Below are positions 1,771 through 31,541 of a stretch of DNA of 33,150 nucleotides, piece after piece. Below the pieces are notes generated by a model. That model was not told where the DNA came from and searched no databases. It worked only from the letters and a program-made list of their open reading frames with translations. The DNA comes from a virus: positions 1 through 33,150 of the IMG/VR virus record IMGVR_UViG_3300007735_000630; one strand, written 5' to 3'. Position numbers and translations under genes: made by a program. Positions within the stretch are counted from its first letter, which is position 1. The number at the start of each line of letters is the position of its first letter.

Positions 1771-2220
1771 CTACTTGACAGGTTTCTTCTTTCTATGTTT
1801 TTCATACCAAGATTTACCTTGTTTATATTCAAGTCTTCTTTTTTCTCCAATTTTCAATTTGTTTTTTTCATACCAACTTTTTCTGATTTGTTGTTTTTCT
1901 TCGTCTGTTTTTTTCAGACGAGCCTTTTTGACATATCTTGATTTAGATTTTTTTTTCTGGTGTTCATATGCTTGTGTCGAATCAGTAAAATCACCACCTC
2001 TTTTATTGAATAATTTTGCACCATTTTTTAAATAAAAATCAATCCAATATCTCTCTCTGCCTTTGTCAAGTGTTTCTTCAATTAATTCTATTCTGCACAG
2101 TTTGTAGATTTCAGGTGGTACTGAATAATTAGCGGAACCTTTTCTTCGATATAGTTTCAATTTTGTCAATCCGATATAGACTACTTCACCTTCATAAATT
2201 AGTTTGTAAATTTTAATCAT
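1771..2220 (-). CDS. GIY-YIG nuclease with basic repeat tail
   Basis: First gene of the leftward block. The N-terminus carries a degenerate GIY-YIG signature: KIY at residues 3-5 and YIG at 15-17, basic residues at 20-27 (KLKLYRRK), and a candidate catalytic glutamate in RERYWI (E56). The C-terminal half (about 88-149) is extremely Lys/Arg rich and repeats a SWYEK(N/H) element at about 115 and 137, which suggests a DNA-binding tail. Phage GIY-YIG proteins of this size are often free-standing homing nucleases; position just before terS would also fit a packaging-linked or HNH-like nicking role, but nothing in the sequence shows that. The start is ATG 2220, facing the rightward genes. Confidence 0.75.
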   Translation of the reverse strand: MIKIYKLIYEGEVVYIGLTKLKLYRRKGSANYSVPPEIYKLCRIELIEETLDKGRERYWIDFYLKNGAKLFNKRGGDFTDSTQAYEHQKKKSKSRYVKKARLKKTDEEKQQIRKSWYEKNKLKIGEKRRLEYKQGKSWYEKHRKKKPVK

Positions 2221-6551: not shown

Positions 6552-6587
6552 ACTACTCGTCGTTTCGTTCGTGTGCGAACGACGAGT
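6546..6587 (+). repeat. Hairpin repeat, copy 2
   Basis: This is the second copy of the unit at 6192-6233 (33-bp core at 6555-6587 identical; two differences in the linker). Here the flanks also pair (TTTAAACT with AGTTTAAA, offset by a short bulge), making the stem longer than in copy 1. It is followed by a run of A, not T, so it does not look like a rightward intrinsic terminator. Confidence 0.85.
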
Positions 6588-6611
6588 TTAAAAAAAAAGA
6601 ATGAACACCAT

Positions 6612-6926
6612 TTGAAAAAACAAAAACCCATTTACTACATCTATTCAATCAAACTTGGTGGTTTGACAAGATATATTGGAATGACCAACAACATTAAAAG
6701 AAGACAATCACAACATCGAACAGACAGCAAGAAATTAAATTTAACGAAGTCTTTTTACAAAATGAAACGTCAACTACACTCAGAAGAAGAAATCGTGTTA
6801 GAAGTCATTTATCAAACTGACAAAAAGATTGAAGCAATTAGAATGGAAGCTTACTTGATTTTAAAAGACCACTTTTCAGATGGTGAACTTTGGCAATCTC
6901 CACCACATATTATCAAATATTTTTAA
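6612..6926 (+). CDS. GIY-YIG nuclease
   Basis: A compact single-domain GIY-YIG endonuclease of 104 residues. The first motif YIY is at 9-11 and the second YIG at 21-23, followed by NNIKRRQSQH with the basic residues expected after YIG, and a glutamate in RMEAYLIL that fits the catalytic metal ligand. There is no in-frame ATG before the domain: I chose TTG at 6612 (MKKQKPIYYIYS); the alternative is GTG at 6573, inside the hairpin repeat. The ATG at 6601 is out of frame and stops after four codons. Together with the GIY-YIG gene at 1771-2220 it makes two such nucleases in the genome. Mobility or host DNA degradation are possible roles. Confidence 0.8.
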   Translation: MKKQKPIYYIYSIKLGGLTRYIGMTNNIKRRQSQHRTDSKKLNLTKSFYKMKRQLHSEEEIVLEVIYQTDKKIEAIRMEAYLILKDHFSDGELWQSPPHIIKYF

Positions 6927-8791: not shown

Positions 8792-9994
8792 ATGCCAATC
8801 AATCCAAGACAAAATGAAAGTCAAGATGACTTTATATCCCGTTGTATCCGTATAGAAATCGACAACGGAAAATCTCAACCACAAGCAGTTGCTATTTGTA
8901 TAAAGAAAGCAGAAGATGAATTTCGTGGAATGACACCATCTGTTTCAGATGCTACTTGGTCAACAGAAGCACCTGTTTCAATCAACTTTGAAACATATAA
9001 TGATTATCCAGAGGCCGCAAAAAACGCGGCTTGTAAAGTGCTGAGGTGGCGTGATGAACACGGTGATGAAGTTAAAGGAATGACTCGTGTTGGTTGGACA
9101 AGGGCAAATCAACTTTGTGGTGGTGAAAATATCAGTGAAGAAACCATAGCAAGAATGTCTGCTTTTCAAAGACATAAAAAGAATTCAGAAATATCACCAG
9201 AGTTTGAAGGAACACCTTGGAAAGACGCTGGGTATGTTGCTTGGTTAGGGTGGGGTGGAACCGCTGGAGTAGAATGGGCATCAAGAAAACTGGAACAAAT
9301 TAGAAAACAAAAACTCGAAAAACAAGACTTTAGAAAAGTAAAAAAGGTTCTGTTCGAAGAAGAATTCGATGTAGAAAAAGTTCGTTCTATGAAAGAAATG
9401 GGTTTCAAAGTTCTTGTTCGTTCATCAAGAAAAATCAAAAAAAGGGATAAAAAAGTTTGGAATAAATTAAAATCTGCTGGTCTTTCAGAAGATAATTTAC
9501 TTTTTGGTGAAACGAGGGAGTTGAATAATAAAATGGAGTTTTCTTACATAGATGGTGAAGATTGTATAATTACCCATTTATCTCGAACAGGAGAGACTTT
9601 CTCACCTGATATAAAGGTTTTACATTCAGAACCAGTTAAAGACATCTTACACGCAAAAGAAATCGATTTTAATTTGAGAAAACAATTTGAAGGAAAATTT
9701 AGAACTGTCAAAGTAACTTATACCTATAAAGAAATTGATGGTATACCATCGGCAAAATCTGGTTCAAGGCCATTTTGTAAAGATATGATGAGCATGAAAG
9801 GTCGTGAATGGACTTTGGAAGAATTAATATCTGCTGAAAATGAAACTTTGAAACTGGGAATGGAAAACCTTGCAGATATGAACCTACCAGAAGACTTGAT
9901 ACTTTACAGAGGTGGATTTTATAGAAATCCTGAAACTGGCATCACAACAGCATTTTGTAGACACGAATGGAAAGTGAATGTTAGGATTGTTTAG
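8792..9994 (+). CDS. Multidomain phage protein with structural-protein signatures
   Basis: A 400-residue protein, last gene of the rightward block. Three parts are visible. Residues 1-45 (MPINPRQNESQDDFISRCIR, then a repeat of acidic and AIC residues) resemble a short module found at the start of several phage head proteins. Residues about 65-165 carry a YPEAAKNAACKVLRWRDEHG segment and WKDAGYVAWLGWGG, another phage-restricted module. The C-terminal part (about 290-400) has SRPFCKDMM, DLILYRGG and a final CRHEW, resembling the C-terminal extension I associate with Bacteroidota prohead proteases or portal-linked proteins. Enzymatic activity cannot be assigned. It is encoded away from and opposite to the structural operon; its 3' end overlaps the holin gene tail to tail by 14 nt. 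Confidence 0.7.
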   Translation: MPINPRQNESQDDFISRCIRIEIDNGKSQPQAVAICIKKAEDEFRGMTPSVSDATWSTEAPVSINFETYNDYPEAAKNAACKVLRWRDEHGDEVKGMTRVGWTRANQLCGGENISEETIARMSAFQRHKKNSEISPEFEGTPWKDAGYVAWLGWGGTAGVEWASRKLEQIRKQKLEKQDFRKVKKVLFEEEFDVEKVRSMKEMGFKVLVRSSRKIKKRDKKVWNKLKSAGLSEDNLLFGETRELNNKMEFSYIDGEDCIITHLSRTGETFSPDIKVLHSEPVKDILHAKEIDFNLRKQFEGKFRTVKVTYTYKEIDGIPSAKSGSRPFCKDMMSMKGREWTLEELISAENETLKLGMENLADMNLPEDLILYRGGFYRNPETGITTAFCRHEWKVNVRIV

Positions 9995-11473: not shown

Positions 11474-12211
11474 TTAAGATTTTGTTATATCTATTGAAAG
11501 ATTTACTCTTGTCAAAGTTGAAGCACTATCAACATTGAATGCAATTATATCACCAGATGTTACTGATGTTTGCCATGTTGAAAGTGAAAGGTCTTGATTT
11601 TTTGTTGCCGATGAAAGTGTTGGTCTTTCTGTGCCAGCAATTCTGTCTGCTACTGTTGGTGGAAAATTCGCGTATGTGTCTTTCCAAACATCTACAACGA
11701 TTGAACCTGTCTGGTCTGACATTATAGTCCAACCAGTGATTGTTCCGTTGTATGGAACTTCAACATATCCTTTTACACCAGTTGTGATTGCTGAACCACC
11801 ACCATCAATTGTGATGCCGAAAGATCCAAGTGATGTTGGTGAAGTGCCTGATGAACCAGATGTGCCATTAACACCAGATGTGCCTGATGTGCCATTAACA
11901 CCAGATGTGCCGCTGACACCAGATGTGCCTGATGTGCCACTGACACCAGAAGAACCAGATGAACCAGCAGAACCATTTGTTCCTGATGAACCTGATGAAC
12001 CTGATGAACCAGATGAACCAGATGTGCCATTCACACCAGATGTGCCTGATGAACCTGATGACCCAGATGTGCCTGATGAACCTGATGTTCCACTTGAACC
12101 CGTTGGTCCAATATATACACCAGTGTTAATATCATAAAGCAAACCATTTAGTGTGGTTCGAACTGATAAACCTGTGTCATTGTTGTTGATTAAATTATAC
12201 GGTGTTGGCAT
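11474..12211 (-). CDS. Collagen-like tail fibre protein
   Basis: A 245-residue protein in three parts: a short N-terminus (1-34) that probably attaches to the virion, about 30 uninterrupted Gly-X-Y triplets (residues 35-124) with X and Y almost always Ser, Thr, Val or Asn, and a C-terminal beta domain of about 120 residues (GSFGITIDGGG onwards, with VVDVWKDTYANFPPT) that would trimerise or bind. Bacterial and phage collagen-like proteins form triple helices without hydroxyproline. This one has almost no Pro or charge, so helix stability would have to come from the flanking domain or glycosylated Ser/Thr. It starts at ATG 12211 after an A-rich leader. Confidence 0.85.
   Translation of the reverse strand: MPTPYNLINNNDTGLSVRTTLNGLLYDINTGVYIGPTGSSGTSGSSGTSGSSGSSGTSGVNGTSGSSGSSGSSGSSGTNGSAGSSGSSGVSGTSGTSGVSGTSGVNGTSGTSGVNGTSGSSGTSPTSLGSFGITIDGGGSAITTGVKGYVEVPYNGTITGWTIMSDQTGSIVVDVWKDTYANFPPTVADRIAGTERPTLSSATKNQDLSLSTWQTSVTSGDIIAFNVDSASTLTRVNLSIDITKS
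11840..12109 (-). repeat. Gly-X-Y repeat-coding DNA
   Basis: Thirty 9-nt units encode GSS, GTS, GVN, GVS and similar triplets. Synonymous codons vary between units (GGC ACA and GGA ACA both occur), so the array is not a simple perfect tandem repeat. It is similar to the array at 31134-31349. Confidence 0.9.
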
Positions 12212-16084: not shown

Positions 16085-16990
16085 TTATGAATAAAGAACG
16101 ATTTCATTTCCATATAGATAATCAACACCAAATTTCAAAGAAGTTACGAATCTTTCAGTTCTTGCTCCTGAGATATTTCTTTGTGGGATAAGAAGGACTT
16201 CGTCCCAGTCAGATGTCAAGTCAGTCAAGAAGAAAACTTTATCTGAGTTGAAAGCAATCATTTGTTTGTTTGATAAACCAGATGTCGGAATCAATCTATA
16301 CCCAAGATAATTCAATTCTTTATCACCAACAAGGAATAAACCACCAGTTGTAGCCGCTTGTGCTTGTTTGTATGAGAATGCGATTGCTTGAGATACAAAG
16401 ATTTTGAAATTAGGTTGGTTTCTTACCTCTGCTGGAACTGCTTCCAACAGTCTGTTTAATTCACCAACAACATTTGATGATGTGATTGTAGATGCGGTTG
16501 CAGAAACATCGATTACTGCTGCGTCAGCCAATAATTTTTTAACCAAACCATCACAAAGATTTAGAGGATATGAAGAAGTTCCAGTATCTCCTTTGAAAAG
16601 TGTGATTTCTAAGTCAGATGCTACTTTTTCAGCAACATAATCAACTACGAATTCAGCGTATGAGTTTGGCATCACCTCTTCTGAGTTTGAACCTGCTCTT
16701 AGTTGAAGTGAAAGATAATTTGCTTCGAATGTTGTAGCACAATATTCAAGATTTACTTTCAAATCACAAACTTCTAAAGTTTTTTGATTTAATGTTCCCT
16801 CGCCTGTAGCAGAGAATGTGCAATCATCAGATTGTAAGATGTTTCCTAAGTCAGAGTAAGCTAATTTGATTTTTGATTTCACATTTGGAATCAAAGTCAA
16901 TTCAGACTTAGCAACACCTGTGGTAAGGACTTTCTTGAAGAAACCTTCAGCGTCTTTTCCATAAAAAGTAGTATTGTCAACTAATGCCAT
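16085..16990 (-). CDS. Major capsid protein
   Basis: A 301-residue protein with the composition and layout of an HK97-fold capsid protein: helical N-terminal region (about 1-40, FFKKVLTTGVAKSE), E-loop-like strands, an A-domain with GGLFLVGDKELNYLGYRLIP (about 218-237), and a C-terminal SGARTERFVTSLKFGVDYLY (about 274-293) in which the Phe/Gly-rich strand is typical of capsid proteins. It is placed right after the protease/scaffold gene and before the putative tail tube gene. A leader of 56 nt with TATATA precedes the start, possibly a promoter or strong translation leader. Confidence 0.85.
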   Translation of the reverse strand: MALVDNTTFYGKDAEGFFKKVLTTGVAKSELTLIPNVKSKIKLAYSDLGNILQSDDCTFSATGEGTLNQKTLEVCDLKVNLEYCATTFEANYLSLQLRAGSNSEEVMPNSYAEFVVDYVAEKVASDLEITLFKGDTGTSSYPLNLCDGLVKKLLADAAVIDVSATASTITSSNVVGELNRLLEAVPAEVRNQPNFKIFVSQAIAFSYKQAQAATTGGLFLVGDKELNYLGYRLIPTSGLSNKQMIAFNSDKVFFLTDLTSDWDEVLLIPQRNISGARTERFVTSLKFGVDYLYGNEIVLYS

Positions 16991-17046: not shown

Positions 17047-18126
17047 TTATTTCACTTTTGCAAAAGCCTTTACTTTGGCTTCCATTTCGGTGAATTTATC
17101 ATTGAACTTGACTTTTTGAACATCTTTTGTGATTGAACTTTCTGATGGTGTCATTTTGAATTTTTCAGAAACTTGTTTTTTATATTCTTGATATTCTTTT
17201 TCTTTATCACCCATCATAGATTTCAATGCGGTGATTTCGTCCATCAACTCTTGATATCTACTGTCAATCATCAAACTAACTTCTTCAGCTGAAAGTGATG
17301 GTGCACCAGGTGCCATATCTTCAGCTGCTGCTTCCATCGGTTCAGGTTTTCCGTCAACAACTGGAACACAATTTGGAACCTCTTTTCCATTCTCATCCAA
17401 TTTCGTTCCAACCATTTCATATCCTTCATAGCAAGGACCATCAGCTGCTAAAACCATTCCATCTTCAATGCTTTCAACAACACCACCGATAACAACTATA
17501 GTTCTTCCATCTTCGAGAACCCATCTGTCGTCGTCTGCTGGAACAGTCATTGCTTCATCAGTAAAGATTGCAGTTCCAACTTCAATCATATCACCATCAT
17601 AAAAGATTGGTGTTGTTCCATCACCTAACATCGAGGAACCTAAGTCAAGATTTACTTGTTTTTTCATACTTTGTTTTTTTATTTTTTTTATCATTTTCAG
17701 TTCCAAGTTTGCTAAGATTTCAACAGAGAAACCTTTCACTTTTTCACTTTTCACTTCGTCATTCCAAAATTTGTCATCTTTGATTTTGACACCACCGAAC
17801 CAAGTTCCTTCTGGTAAATCAAAACCAAATTTTTTACTTTTATCATCTGAACCTTCAATAACCCAGTTTTCAAAAACAAATGCATTGACACTCTCGTCTG
17901 TATGCATTAAATTGATTTCTTTATTTTTGAGTTGTTCATTAAACTTCTCAGCAATCTTTTTAATTTCACCTGATGAAAATCTAACATAATATTCACCATT
18001 CTTTTCGTCTTTTCTATATATCAGTTTGTTTGGTATCAAAAATGGACCAAACAACATTTTCTTTTCTTCGTCTGCTTTGAAATTTATATTTGTCATTTGA
18101 ATTTTACTCTTTTTAAATTTCATCAT
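17047..18126 (-). CDS. XkdF-like prohead protease with scaffold-like C-terminus
   Basis: A 359-residue serine protease that processes the scaffold and capsid during head maturation. The catalytic region (about 20-140) has the family pattern: FGPFLIPNKLIYRKDE, then EYYVRFSSGEIKKIAEKF, catalytic-His candidate H75 in INLMHTD, FDLPEGTWF and nucleophile candidate S134 in VKGFSVE. This is XkdF-like / Peptidase_S78_2. The middle (about 155-265) contains a beta module with CYEGYEMVG and NCVPV, and the C-terminal 110 residues are a charged coiled coil (EYQEYKKQVSEKF) that looks like a scaffold domain. So protease and scaffold are probably fused. The N-terminal domain usual for this family appears instead at the start of the gene upstream (18138-19949). 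ATG 18126 is followed by a second ATG. Confidence 0.88.
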   Translation of the reverse strand: MMKFKKSKIQMTNINFKADEEKKMLFGPFLIPNKLIYRKDEKNGEYYVRFSSGEIKKIAEKFNEQLKNKEINLMHTDESVNAFVFENWVIEGSDDKSKKFGFDLPEGTWFGGVKIKDDKFWNDEVKSEKVKGFSVEILANLELKMIKKIKKQSMKKQVNLDLGSSMLGDGTTPIFYDGDMIEVGTAIFTDEAMTVPADDDRWVLEDGRTIVVIGGVVESIEDGMVLAADGPCYEGYEMVGTKLDENGKEVPNCVPVVDGKPEPMEAAAEDMAPGAPSLSAEEVSLMIDSRYQELMDEITALKSMMGDKEKEYQEYKKQVSEKFKMTPSESSITKDVQKVKFNDKFTEMEAKVKAFAKVK

Positions 18127-18137
18127 CTTTCACTTTT

Positions 18138-19949
18138 CTATTGTATAGCCCAAGGTCTTGCTCTAAATCTTCTTTTATCACCACCAATCCTACTATCAAA
18201 AGTTACTGAGTAATTGACTTTTGGCATTTTACCACCCATCAAAAAACCTGGCTCCATATATTTTGGATTATTGTCAAAATCAATACCATCTCTTTTTGTA
18301 GTTCCTAAAGCATCTTTACTAATTCTTCGTGGCTTGCCAGTTTCTCTATCAACAGAATAAGGCTTGGCTTTTATAGTTTTATCTTCTGTGTTGATTGTCA
18401 CGATGTTGTAACCTGACCAACCATCTCTAAGTCTAACGTGAAGTTCATTCGGATTATCACCTTGCACATATTGATACTTGCTTTTAGCGACACCATCTCT
18501 AATTTGCATTGTGTTATTGACTTTGAGAAGTAGGCTTGAATATTCATCATTTGTTAGTTGAACTATATCACCACTCAAAATGTCTGCAGTCTTTTGACCA
18601 ACATCTGATATGCCATAAGTTTTTTCTGTGAGTCCTGATTTACGTAAGTCATTTTCATATCTTTGAATTCTTTCTTCACCATCAGCTTCTGGTCTTGATA
18701 AAACGACTTCATCATCAGGTTTGATGTCATAACCAACATATCCTTTATATAAGCCCTCATACTCTTCTTTTGTCAGGACTTTGCCATATGCTGGTCTTGT
18801 TTGTTCAGATTTAGAAGCATCTTTAGCACCAGCACCTTTAGCCTTTGGACCAGCAGCCTTTGGTGTTTTTCCAGCACCATCACCTTTTGTGTCTTTACAT
18901 CTTCTGTCAGGTTCACCATTAACTCTGGTTCCATCACCGTTTGGTGGACAAGCTAAACATTCTTTTTTAGCAAAGGTTTGTTTTTTGAACGACCACTGAA
19001 CTTCTTTATATCCACCTAAATCTGTGACCTTTCTCTTTTGACCAGGTTCTGATTTTGTTGGTTTGCCTTTATCATAATCCCAAGTTTTATCATTCTCAAT
19101 GCCGAGGTATCTCATTGCTGCTGTGTGATAATCTCGTCCCTTATCAGGACCATCAGGTGGTGATTGTTTATTTTTTAGCCAATCTGGAAAGTATTCCTGA
19201 GTTAAGGCGTTTGTAGTCTCATTTATAATTGCATCAACATATGAGTTGTTTGCTTGTTCTACTGCTTTAGGTCCTGTGAAGTCTTCGGAGCTTTTTGGAT
19301 TTTGGAAGTCACCAGAAGGTTTTCCACTTGCCTTTCCACCACCTTTTGGTGTTTTTTCAGCACCATCACCTTTACATCTCTTGTCAGGTTCACCATTTAC
19401 ACGAGTTCCATCACCGTTTGGTGGACAAGCTAAGCATTCTTTTTTAGCAAGAACCATTTTACGTTTTCTCATTCTAACAGCCATCATTGTTTTAGGCATC
19501 AAATCTTCAACAACTTTTATATGACCGTTCATATAATCAACATTTTGTGGTTGACCTGTGATTTTGTCGATTTCTGAAATTATATCTTTGAAATCGGCTA
19601 CAAGAATTTTGACTTGTTCTAAGTCTTCACGAGTAGCTTTGCCAGCCTGAATCACTCTTTTTTCAATTTCGAAAACATTATCAGCATTTTGAGCTGCTGA
19701 CCTAATCATACCGATTGTGTCTTCGTCAAGTTGCATTTCAGAATAATTTTTGAAAGTTGCTTGAGCACCAGGACAAATATCAAAGTGCTGTGTTTCATAT
19801 CCGAAAACATCTTGTAGTTTTAATTCAACTTTTCTGAGTGCAATCCAGTTGACGCCAATTGCAGGAACATCTACGAGAGAAATCTTTGATACTCCTTGAA
19901 TTTCTGCATCATCTTCGATTGTGATGTCATAGATTGGAAGGTCTTTCAT
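18138..19949 (-). CDS. Multidomain protein with prohead-protease N-module and duplicated Cys cassette
   Basis: A 603-residue protein. Residues 1-40 (IYDITIEDDAEIQGVSKISL, then VPAIGVNWIAL) match the N-terminal module that I associate with XkdF-like prohead proteases. Residues about 50-130 (FDICPGAQATF, then a helical region with EIEKRVIQAGKATREDLE) resemble a helical module also found in those proteins. Then come two near-identical cassettes, 167-210 and 327-372, each with AKKECLACPPNGDGTRVNG and a C-x2-C-x16-C pattern followed by GDG..KTPK and a Gly/Ala/Lys linker. Between them is a soluble domain (about 211-326), and after the second cassette a 230-residue C-terminal domain (about 385-603). 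The protease catalytic motifs are absent here but present in the next gene, 11 nt away. Confidence 0.75.
   Translation of the reverse strand: MKDLPIYDITIEDDAEIQGVSKISLVDVPAIGVNWIALRKVELKLQDVFGYETQHFDICPGAQATFKNYSEMQLDEDTIGMIRSAAQNADNVFEIEKRVIQAGKATREDLEQVKILVADFKDIISEIDKITGQPQNVDYMNGHIKVVEDLMPKTMMAVRMRKRKMVLAKKECLACPPNGDGTRVNGEPDKRCKGDGAEKTPKGGGKASGKPSGDFQNPKSSEDFTGPKAVEQANNSYVDAIINETTNALTQEYFPDWLKNKQSPPDGPDKGRDYHTAAMRYLGIENDKTWDYDKGKPTKSEPGQKRKVTDLGGYKEVQWSFKKQTFAKKECLACPPNGDGTRVNGEPDRRCKDTKGDGAGKTPKAAGPKAKGAGAKDASKSEQTRPAYGKVLTKEEYEGLYKGYVGYDIKPDDEVVLSRPEADGEERIQRYENDLRKSGLTEKTYGISDVGQKTADILSGDIVQLTNDEYSSLLLKVNNTMQIRDGVAKSKYQYVQGDNPNELHVRLRDGWSGYNIVTINTEDKTIKAKPYSVDRETGKPRRISKDALGTTKRDGIDFDNNPKYMEPGFLMGGKMPKVNYSVTFDSRIGGDKRRFRARPWAIQ
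18834..18971 (-). repeat. Cys/Gly cassette, copy B
   Basis: This encodes residues 327-372 of the multidomain protein. It is nearly identical in protein, and closely similar in DNA, to 19320-19451. The three Cys are C331, C334 and C351. The linker after the cassette is longer and Ala-rich. Confidence 0.85.
19320..19451 (-). repeat. Cys/Gly cassette, copy A
   Basis: This encodes residues 167-210 (C172, C175, C192). Over about 26 residues the only difference from copy B is Lys versus Arg. Several synonymous differences show that the duplication is not brand new. Confidence 0.85.
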
Positions 19950-30194: not shown

Positions 30195-31541
30195 TTAAAT
30201 TGTTTCTAATTTATAAGCCATCAATTTACCACTCGGGATTGACTGACCACCTCGTATGACCAAATCAGATGCTGAATATAAAAAGATTTCGATTTTGTCT
30301 AAGGCATTTAATTGTGCCTGCCAACTGCCTGTGATTTCATAATATGGTATAGTAGTTCCTGATCCATAGGTTGATGATGATTTAGCTGCAAAAGCAATCC
30401 CTGTGCCAGACCAGGTTACGCCATTTTTCTTTAAGAAAAAGACTGCCTGATTGTCTAAATTATTTTGATGACCTAATGAAACCATATAATGAAATTGATA
30501 ATATCCATCTGATACAACTGAAATCCACGATTGTGTTGCTGATGTAAATGCATTAAAACCCCATTGTGTTTCTATATTGTCGGTGAAATGCACAAAGGTC
30601 TCGGCACCAGCTGCCTTAGTCTGTGTCTTTTGAGACCAACCTGAAAAGTATGCTGGTGCGAACGAAGTGCCTGATGTGCCTGATGTGCCGCTATTTCCAG
30701 TTGCTCCAACAACACCACCTAATTCAAATGCTGATGCGTTGATATATTCATATATCAAAGTGCCTGAAAGAGACACGGCTTTTGCTAAAACTGCAAACCA
30801 ATATTGTGTTCCGATTGTGAGACCATTAACTATGAATGACAGGTTCGTTTGATTTCCAAAAGAAATCATTCTTTCAGAAACAGAAGTTCCAGTTGCTGCT
30901 GCGCCATCAATCGGTGCCACGCCTGTTCCATATCTTAGTTCATAAATCATATCAGACACACCCTGTGTTGCCTGAAATTCATAATTGACATAGACAACAC
31001 CAGTTGATTTAGGTGTGAAATAAAATCCACCAGTTGCACCTATCATTTTGCCTGATGTGCCAACATTGGGTATTGATAAAGTCTGATATGAATTTGTTGA
31101 ATTATTCCAAGTGATTTGTCCAATCGGTGATGGTGATGTTCCTGATGACCCTGACGAACCTGATGAACCACTTTGACCTGACGAACCACTTGATCCTGAT
31201 GTTCCACTTTGACCTGATGAACCACTTACACCACTTGAACCAGAGGAACCTGATGTTCCATTAGTACCTGATGAACCACTTGAACCTGATGAACCACTTA
31301 CACCACTTGAACCAGAAGAACCTGATGTGCCATTTGTGCCTGATGCACCGCTCACTGCACCCCAACTAAGGCCACCAGTTCCATCTGTTATTAAACCTTG
31401 ACCAGATGAACCATAAGATTGTGGTAAATCAAAATCAAGTTGTGATGAACCAGTATATCCAAGTGTGAGATATGTTGATGTTGAAGATGATATTTTTAAT
31501 CTACCTTCACCATTAAAAGAATTTTGATTTATTCCTGACAT
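30195..31541 (-). CDS. Collagen-like fibre with C1q-type C-terminal domain
   Basis: A 448-residue protein. Residues 1-64 may attach to the virion. Residues 65-136 are about 24 Gly-X-Y triplets, mostly GSS, GTS, GVS, GTN and GQS, with no Pro. A beta domain follows (about 138-275, including a fibronectin-like LTIGTQYWFAVLAKA), then a second short collagen-like stretch (GAT GNS GTS GTS GTS, about 279-293), and a C-terminal C1q/TNF-like jelly roll (about 297-448; SDGYYQFHYMVSLGH and DKIEIFLYSASD are typical). C1q domains trimerise and would nucleate the triple helix. Probably a trimeric tail fibre or adhesin. It is located between the tail completion and gp10-like genes. Confidence 0.85.
   Translation of the reverse strand: MSGINQNSFNGEGRLKISSSTSTYLTLGYTGSSQLDFDLPQSYGSSGQGLITDGTGGLSWGAVSGASGTNGTSGSSGSSGVSGSSGSSGSSGTNGTSGSSGSSGVSGSSGQSGTSGSSGSSGQSGSSGSSGSSGTSPSPIGQITWNNSTNSYQTLSIPNVGTSGKMIGATGGFYFTPKSTGVVYVNYEFQATQGVSDMIYELRYGTGVAPIDGAAATGTSVSERMISFGNQTNLSFIVNGLTIGTQYWFAVLAKAVSLSGTLIYEYINASAFELGGVVGATGNSGTSGTSGTSFAPAYFSGWSQKTQTKAAGAETFVHFTDNIETQWGFNAFTSATQSWISVVSDGYYQFHYMVSLGHQNNLDNQAVFFLKKNGVTWSGTGIAFAAKSSSTYGSGTTIPYYEITGSWQAQLNALDKIEIFLYSASDLVIRGGQSIPSGKLMAYKLETI
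31134..31349 (-). repeat. Gly-X-Y repeat-coding DNA with 72-bp period
   Basis: Twenty-four 9-nt triplet-coding units. Within them a unit encoding GTN GTS GSS GSS GVS GSS occurs twice with a 72-bp period (compare 31221 and 31293 on the + strand), with several synonymous changes. The other array is at 11840-12109. Confidence 0.9.

Follow-up and report, generated by a model that had tools for sequence, protein, structure and literature searches.

Proteins that are carried in phage heads, and proteins whose domains move between conserved sequences, have been described in several systems. The internal proteins IPI-IPIII and Alt of phage T4, with their capsid targeting sequences and the gp21 protease, are a precedent for head-carried domains (PMC9026906), as are the DarA and Hdf proteins of phage P1, which are bound inside the head (PMC12810830). 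Phage polyvalent proteins have a C-terminal assemblin-like peptidase (PMC5512222), and in the S subunits of Type I restriction enzymes domains move between repeats (PMC3077401). Here we describe a locus in a virus record of 33,150 bases (the window), in which a short cysteine cassette stands before each of two variable domains of one protein. No description of this cassette, or of variable domains linked to XkdF proteases, was found in the literature, and the locus is possibly a new variant of modular, perhaps virion-carried, phage proteins.

The cassette protein and its gene setting

The window comes from a tailed phage family whose closest cultured relatives infect Bacteroidota. Its minus strand encodes head and tail genes, among them a terminase, a portal, the major capsid protein (MCP), an XkdF protease (Peptidase_S78_2) and a likely tape measure protein. 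The cassette open reading frame (ORF), at 18138-19949 on the minus strand (603 aa, P0001), is flanked by the genes for the tape measure and the protease. The features are:

19830..19949, minus strand: N-module, residues 1-40, KDLPIYDI..QGV..ISLVD.PAIGVNWIAL; 95% identical to the N-module of L004
19497..19829, minus strand: D0 domain, residues 41-151, HFDICPGAQATF..., predicted helical; 55% identity to part of a gene of L010
19344..19448, minus strand: cassette 1, residues 168-202, AKKECLACPPNGDGTRVNGEPDKRCKGDGAEKTPK; C-x2-C-x16-C
19311..19343, minus strand: linker rich in Gly, Lys and Ser, residues 203-213; DNA in common with the start of L029
18984..19310, minus strand: variable domain 1, residues 214-322; no family match
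18858..18971, minus strand: cassette 2, residues 327-364, AKKECLACPPNGDGTRVNGEPDRRCKDTKGDGAGKTPK; C-x2-C-x16-C, nearest copy in L007
18795..18857, minus strand: linker rich in Ala, Gly and Lys, residues 365-385; end point of the homology with L007
18141..18794, minus strand: variable domain 2, residues 386-603; no significant match in the libraries or the related loci
17047..18126, minus strand: XkdF-type capsid maturation protease (Peptidase_S78_2) with a C-terminal coiled coil; Pfam 4.8e-13
16085..16990, minus strand: major capsid protein, PHROG head-and-packaging match; the anchor used to find relatives
8792..9994, plus strand: orthologue of a plus-strand gene of L010, with D0 absent (sequence comparison with L010)

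A sequence-only reading of the window had proposed two nearly identical C-x2-C-x16-C cassettes in one ORF, with a domain of 116 residues between them and one of 230 residues behind the second. This layout was confirmed: the cassettes lie at residues 168-193 and 327-352, and the two domains measure about 110-124 and 220-240 aa. In addition to these parts, the protein has the D0 domain of about 111 aa before cassette 1 and the conserved N-module at residues 1-40. In other loci the XkdF protease protein begins with the N-module sequence, and the window protease (17047..18126, minus strand) is without the N-module borne by its relatives. In variable domain 1 the C-terminal part of about 37 aa is related to L029, and its last 18 aa are common to L007. 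The stretches of cassette plus linker have a strong positive charge (+9 and +8), with Gly, Ala, Lys, Pro and Ser together making up over half of their residues. The AlphaFold2 (AF2) model of the whole protein was poor (pLDDT 39), too poor for a fold search. Sequence matches of P0001 in the PDB were weak DARPin hits over D0, which we judged to be due to chance.

Other features of these phages were noted in passing. Two ORFs of the window, at 1771-2220 (minus) and 6573-6926 (plus), have N-termini that by eye resemble GIY-YIG endonucleases. In L033 (1389-1847) and L034 (1630-2088), an ORF resembling HNH endonucleases (in L033 by eye) is found where a shortened tape-measure frame begins, possibly as a split gene. 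Collagen-like GTSGSSG repeats are present in the window at 11474-12211 and 30195-31541, both on the minus strand, the latter matching tail fibre families.

The cassette block and the capsid protease gene

Alignment of the MCP gave 72 related loci. In at least 45 of these, MCP is preceded by one gene, a single ORF of about 350-400 aa, in which the N-module of about 40 aa is followed by the XkdF protease, a beta-rich part and a coiled coil. The same single-ORF layout was read by eye in the cultured Nonlabens phage P12024L. Against Pfam PF14550 the window protease scored 49.6 bits and the fusion protein of L004 52.1 bits (cut-off 24). An AF2 model of the L056 protein (32 sequences, pLDDT 68) has a beta hairpin for the N-module, a low-confidence linker at residues 31-42 and the protease domain. 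VIA-align placed T4 gp21 (5jbl_A) at the top of the matches to this model (Z 7.7, rmsd 2.9 over 114 aligned residues; 5.1 for the runner-up). Foldseek alone returned nothing at E<=0.001, and the fold evidence for gp21 is for that reason taken as supportive, with the Pfam match as the firm evidence. The usual gene of the relatives is thus one ORF joining the N-module, a gp21-like XkdF protease and the coiled coil.

A minority of the related phages carry a block consisting of the cassette, a Gly/Lys linker and a variable domain, single or twice in tandem, exactly in the disordered linker that joins N-module and protease. In L004 the whole is still a single ORF of 844 aa, with N-module, cassette, domain, protease and coiled coil. 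In the window, L006, L010 and L025 the gene is split, so that N-module, cassettes and domains form one ORF and the protease restarts in the next. The protease is also restarted in L007 and L029, where the contigs are cut; L029 starts inside a cassette-type linker, and its cassette is presumed on this ground. Every copy found has an open reading frame, and no contig that extends to the N-module has lost it.

The presence of the block is patchy on the MCP tree, requiring five changes of state. L057, which is empty, and L058, which is occupied, form a clean pair with about 80% identity on either side of the block. L049, with a cassette, and L051, without one, are sisters with full support on the MCP tree. 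From the protease onward the two have 91% DNA identity, against only about 59% just upstream (L049 ~4992, L051 ~5870), a step that points to a recombination joint at the boundary of N-module and protease.

Similar patterns were seen for other modules. D0 has 55% identity with residues 64-174 encoded by the plus-strand gene of L010, whereas the window orthologue of that gene (8792-9994) is otherwise 49-57% identical and has no D0. Relatives of D0 were found in 40 viral loci (L121-L160) in several gene contexts, in L129 at the C-terminus of another XkdF-like protein; the window copy matched no Pfam family. Judged by these sequence relatives, D0 (HFDxCPGAQ...) is a widespread phage module and a second, apparently mobile one. 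A two-cysteine module, CYEGYExVGxK..GKEVPNCVP, is found late in the window XkdF protein (17047-18126, minus strand, residues ~220-267); it stands at the N-module linker in L032 (5756-6934) and is missing from some phages, so that CYEGY...VPNC is by its distribution another apparently mobile in-frame mini-module. In L004 (5942-8470) the C-terminal half of XkdF has GCIKNQMARYGDEQKAKMACEKMM at the place of this module. In these phages, small cysteine-containing modules seem regularly to move between head genes.

Conservation of the cassette and exchange of domains

The cassette core, AKKECLACPPNGDGTRVNGEPD(K/R)RCK, has 26 residues, and the two cores of the window are identical except for the K/R position. 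Five of the 26 codons differ between them, four of these differences being synonymous. Across the eight cassette copies the pN/pS of the core is 0.14, indicating that it is kept as protein. A zinc ribbon or zinc knuckle was rejected, as four Cys/His ligands are required and each cassette has three cysteines and no histidine. No family match was found for the cassette. The three-cysteine core may be a small knob stabilised by metal or disulfide, and a metal, if bound, might be held with a different ligand or across copies.

Within the window a 42-nt pattern covering the latter half of the cassette matched the two cassettes only, and none in shuffled sequence. In viral contigs, a degenerate DNA pattern for C-x-x-C-P-x-N-G-D-G matched 26 stretches, of which those in five contigs only (L004, L006, L007, L010 and L025) combined a long frame with the remaining cassette residues. 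A second, independent pattern, directed at the latter half of the cassette, recovered these five contigs and no others. The cassette is thus present in eight copies in six records including the window, several of the records being fragments; L010 also has two copies, and the gene is always the same one. In 22 whole records, including the carriers, no copy was found outside the cassette loci. In a phage collection, tblastn gave no match to the full-length protein, to D0 or to the joined variable domains, and none to the cassette by itself with an E-value limit of 10. One genome contig matching the cassette pattern, from Desulfovibrio, had a frame of 47 aa and was dismissed as chance; the additional matches of a looser CxxCPP pattern were likewise short chance frames.

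The sequence-only reading had suggested a search of metagenomic phages for the cassette and its adjoining domains, and had held that the idea would fall if the cassette were found only here, as a local duplication. The search gave five further contigs, which together with the window have at least six unrelated domain types. The cassettes of a pair are moreover not fresh duplicates, since they are closer to copies in other phages than to each other: cassette 2 of the window is 93% identical in nucleotides (20 codons) to the L007 copy and 88% to cassette 1, while in L010 the first cassette has 92% identity with the L025 copy and 82% with the second L010 copy.

Between the window and L007, the DNA spanning the end of domain 1 and cassette 2 is 85.5% identical, domain 2 has no match, and identity is again 89% from the protease on. 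A blastp similarity between window domain 2 and L007 was set aside, being mostly due to the cassette; the domains alone were marginal (Z 2.7, 4/200 shuffles). Among 36 pairs of variable domains, two were clearly homologous, both of them involving L029: it matched domain 2 of L010 (Z 17.6), and its end matched that of window domain 1 (Z 8.0). On both counts L029 is a mosaic, resembling L010 at its front and the window at its end. Domains 1 and 2 of L010 gave Z 4.6, with one of 200 shuffles as high, and this similarity was not relied on. By sequence comparison, a conserved cassette is followed by mostly unrelated domains.

Since homology is interrupted between the cassette linker and the protease, and the block is patchily distributed, we conclude that the block and single domains are exchanged by recombination. 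The earlier description of the cassettes as modular connectors that allow domain exchange is supported by at least six mutually unrelated domain types behind the cassette in six records, and its proposed route, recombination, by the end of the window/L007 homology at the cassette-2 linker and its return at the protease. Searches of Pfam, PHROGs, NCBIfam and PADLOC linked no variable domain to a known family, whether of effectors, toxins, anti-defence or structural proteins; very divergent domains would escape such searches.

A possible cargo slot and its relation to known systems

We favour the reading that the locus is a cargo slot in a phage head gene, holding exchangeable domains directed to the procapsid in the style of T4 internal proteins or polyvalent proteins, and give it a probability of roughly 0.5. 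The cassettes would give recombination its anchor points and join the domains flexibly. The N-module is normally part of the protease-scaffold protein; together with the fusion context it would bring the domains into the procapsid, where the neighbouring protease would trim or free them. The domains would then stay as internal head proteins and may act in the next host. The cargo role is read from position, since no variable domain matches a known family. A head location of the cassette protein is likely, although the gene also adjoins the tape-measure gene. The T4-type site L-x-E-[AGS] is absent from P0001, although this site is that of T4 and may not be that of the present protease.

It is also possible, though with less than even odds, that the cassette-linked domains are prohead assembly factors rather than effectors, either scaffold or core extensions or proteins bound to the inner capsid, their diversity being that of loosely constrained, spacer-like domains; we consider this about half as probable as the cargo slot. 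The L004 fusion sets a domain within a protease-scaffold protein, domain 2 of L010 and L029 have in common a long, helical-looking stretch rich in K and E, and the relatives have a coiled coil behind the protease in the same ORF, all of which would suit an assembly role. However, L031 has no insert and an MCP 97% identical to that of the window, and as insert-free close relatives have near-identical MCPs, the block appears dispensable for building this capsid. The domains are also swapped outright, not eroded.

Less probable still is that the cassette is itself the functional element, as a putative recognition or cleavage tag ([LF]AK[KR]E|C) by which the prohead protease would cut the polyprotein into domains. 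Such a tag is plausible because the gene that follows encodes the capsid-maturation protease, and in L004 this protease and the cassette protein form one fusion. In the window, [LFVIM]AKxE occurs at both cassette starts, near the MCP N-terminus and once in the tape measure protein (4 observed, 0.87 expected; 2/300 shuffles reach 4), and the upstream [LF]AK(K/R)E is retained in 6/8 cassette copies. This motif was, however, picked after the cassettes were seen; it is lost in L004 (LATPE) and L006 (LDGSG) and is not kept at the capsid protein of outgroups, and cutting at [LF]AKxE would leave the conservation of the downstream cysteine core unexplained.

An in-frame insertion of a selfish or neutral kind, for instance the remnant of an intein-like or homing element or plain recombination debris, would account for the split gene in most carriers, the patchy distribution and the homing-type endonuclease genes that seem by eye to be common in these phages, but it is the least probable explanation, as the inserted proteins have no Hint, intein or endonuclease match (membership of the intein/Hint group was rejected in the absence of a Hint domain), the core is under protein constraint (pN/pS 0.14), and every copy is open in frame with the N-module retained where the contig reaches it.

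To return to the cargo slot, a more specific form of it can be put forward tentatively: the cysteine cassette would mark an N-terminal slot of the capsid protease into which unrelated cargos are loaded, stacked and swapped, to be carried by the capsid into the next host. If the domains are head-carried, the locus names, by position alone, fast-exchanging virion-delivered proteins of environmental phages, and offers a natural route of protein loading into capsids. The locus also shows how such proteins swap, by short conserved peptide modules at the domain joints.

The likeness in layout to the T4 internal proteins is that a short N-terminal module precedes a non-essential protein, with a prohead protease adjoining whose relative has gp21 as its best structural match. 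In T4 these proteins are single and small with a targeting sequence of about 10 residues, whereas the present protein is a tandem polyprotein with cysteine cassettes between its domains, and its N-module of about 40 aa is one that the protease also has; both targeting and cleavage are putative here. As in polyvalent proteins, two or more domains are encoded among virion genes, and the C-terminal half of the L004 protein holds a gp21-type capsid protease, at the place where polyvalent proteins have an assemblin-like peptidase (PMC5512222). Unlike in those proteins, no effector domain was recognised in any cassette copy, and a cysteine cassette repeated before each domain was not found described for them (PMC5512222).

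The joining of a conserved head-protein part to variable domains is shared with MuF polymorphic toxins (PMC5576092), but the anchor here is the N-module of a protease, variable parts lie in the middle of the protein as well as at the C-terminus, and no toxin domain was found; membership of the MuF group was rejected, Pfam and PHROGs giving no MuF match. With the S subunits (x-TRD1-y-x-TRD2-y) the locus has in common an alternation of repeat and variable part, one or two variable domains and exchange at the repeats, although protein and function are different and the repeat is a cysteine peptide with a Gly/Lys linker. We would suggest, again with some reserve, that the slot may be a phage counterpart of the domain shuffling in polymorphic toxins and S subunits.
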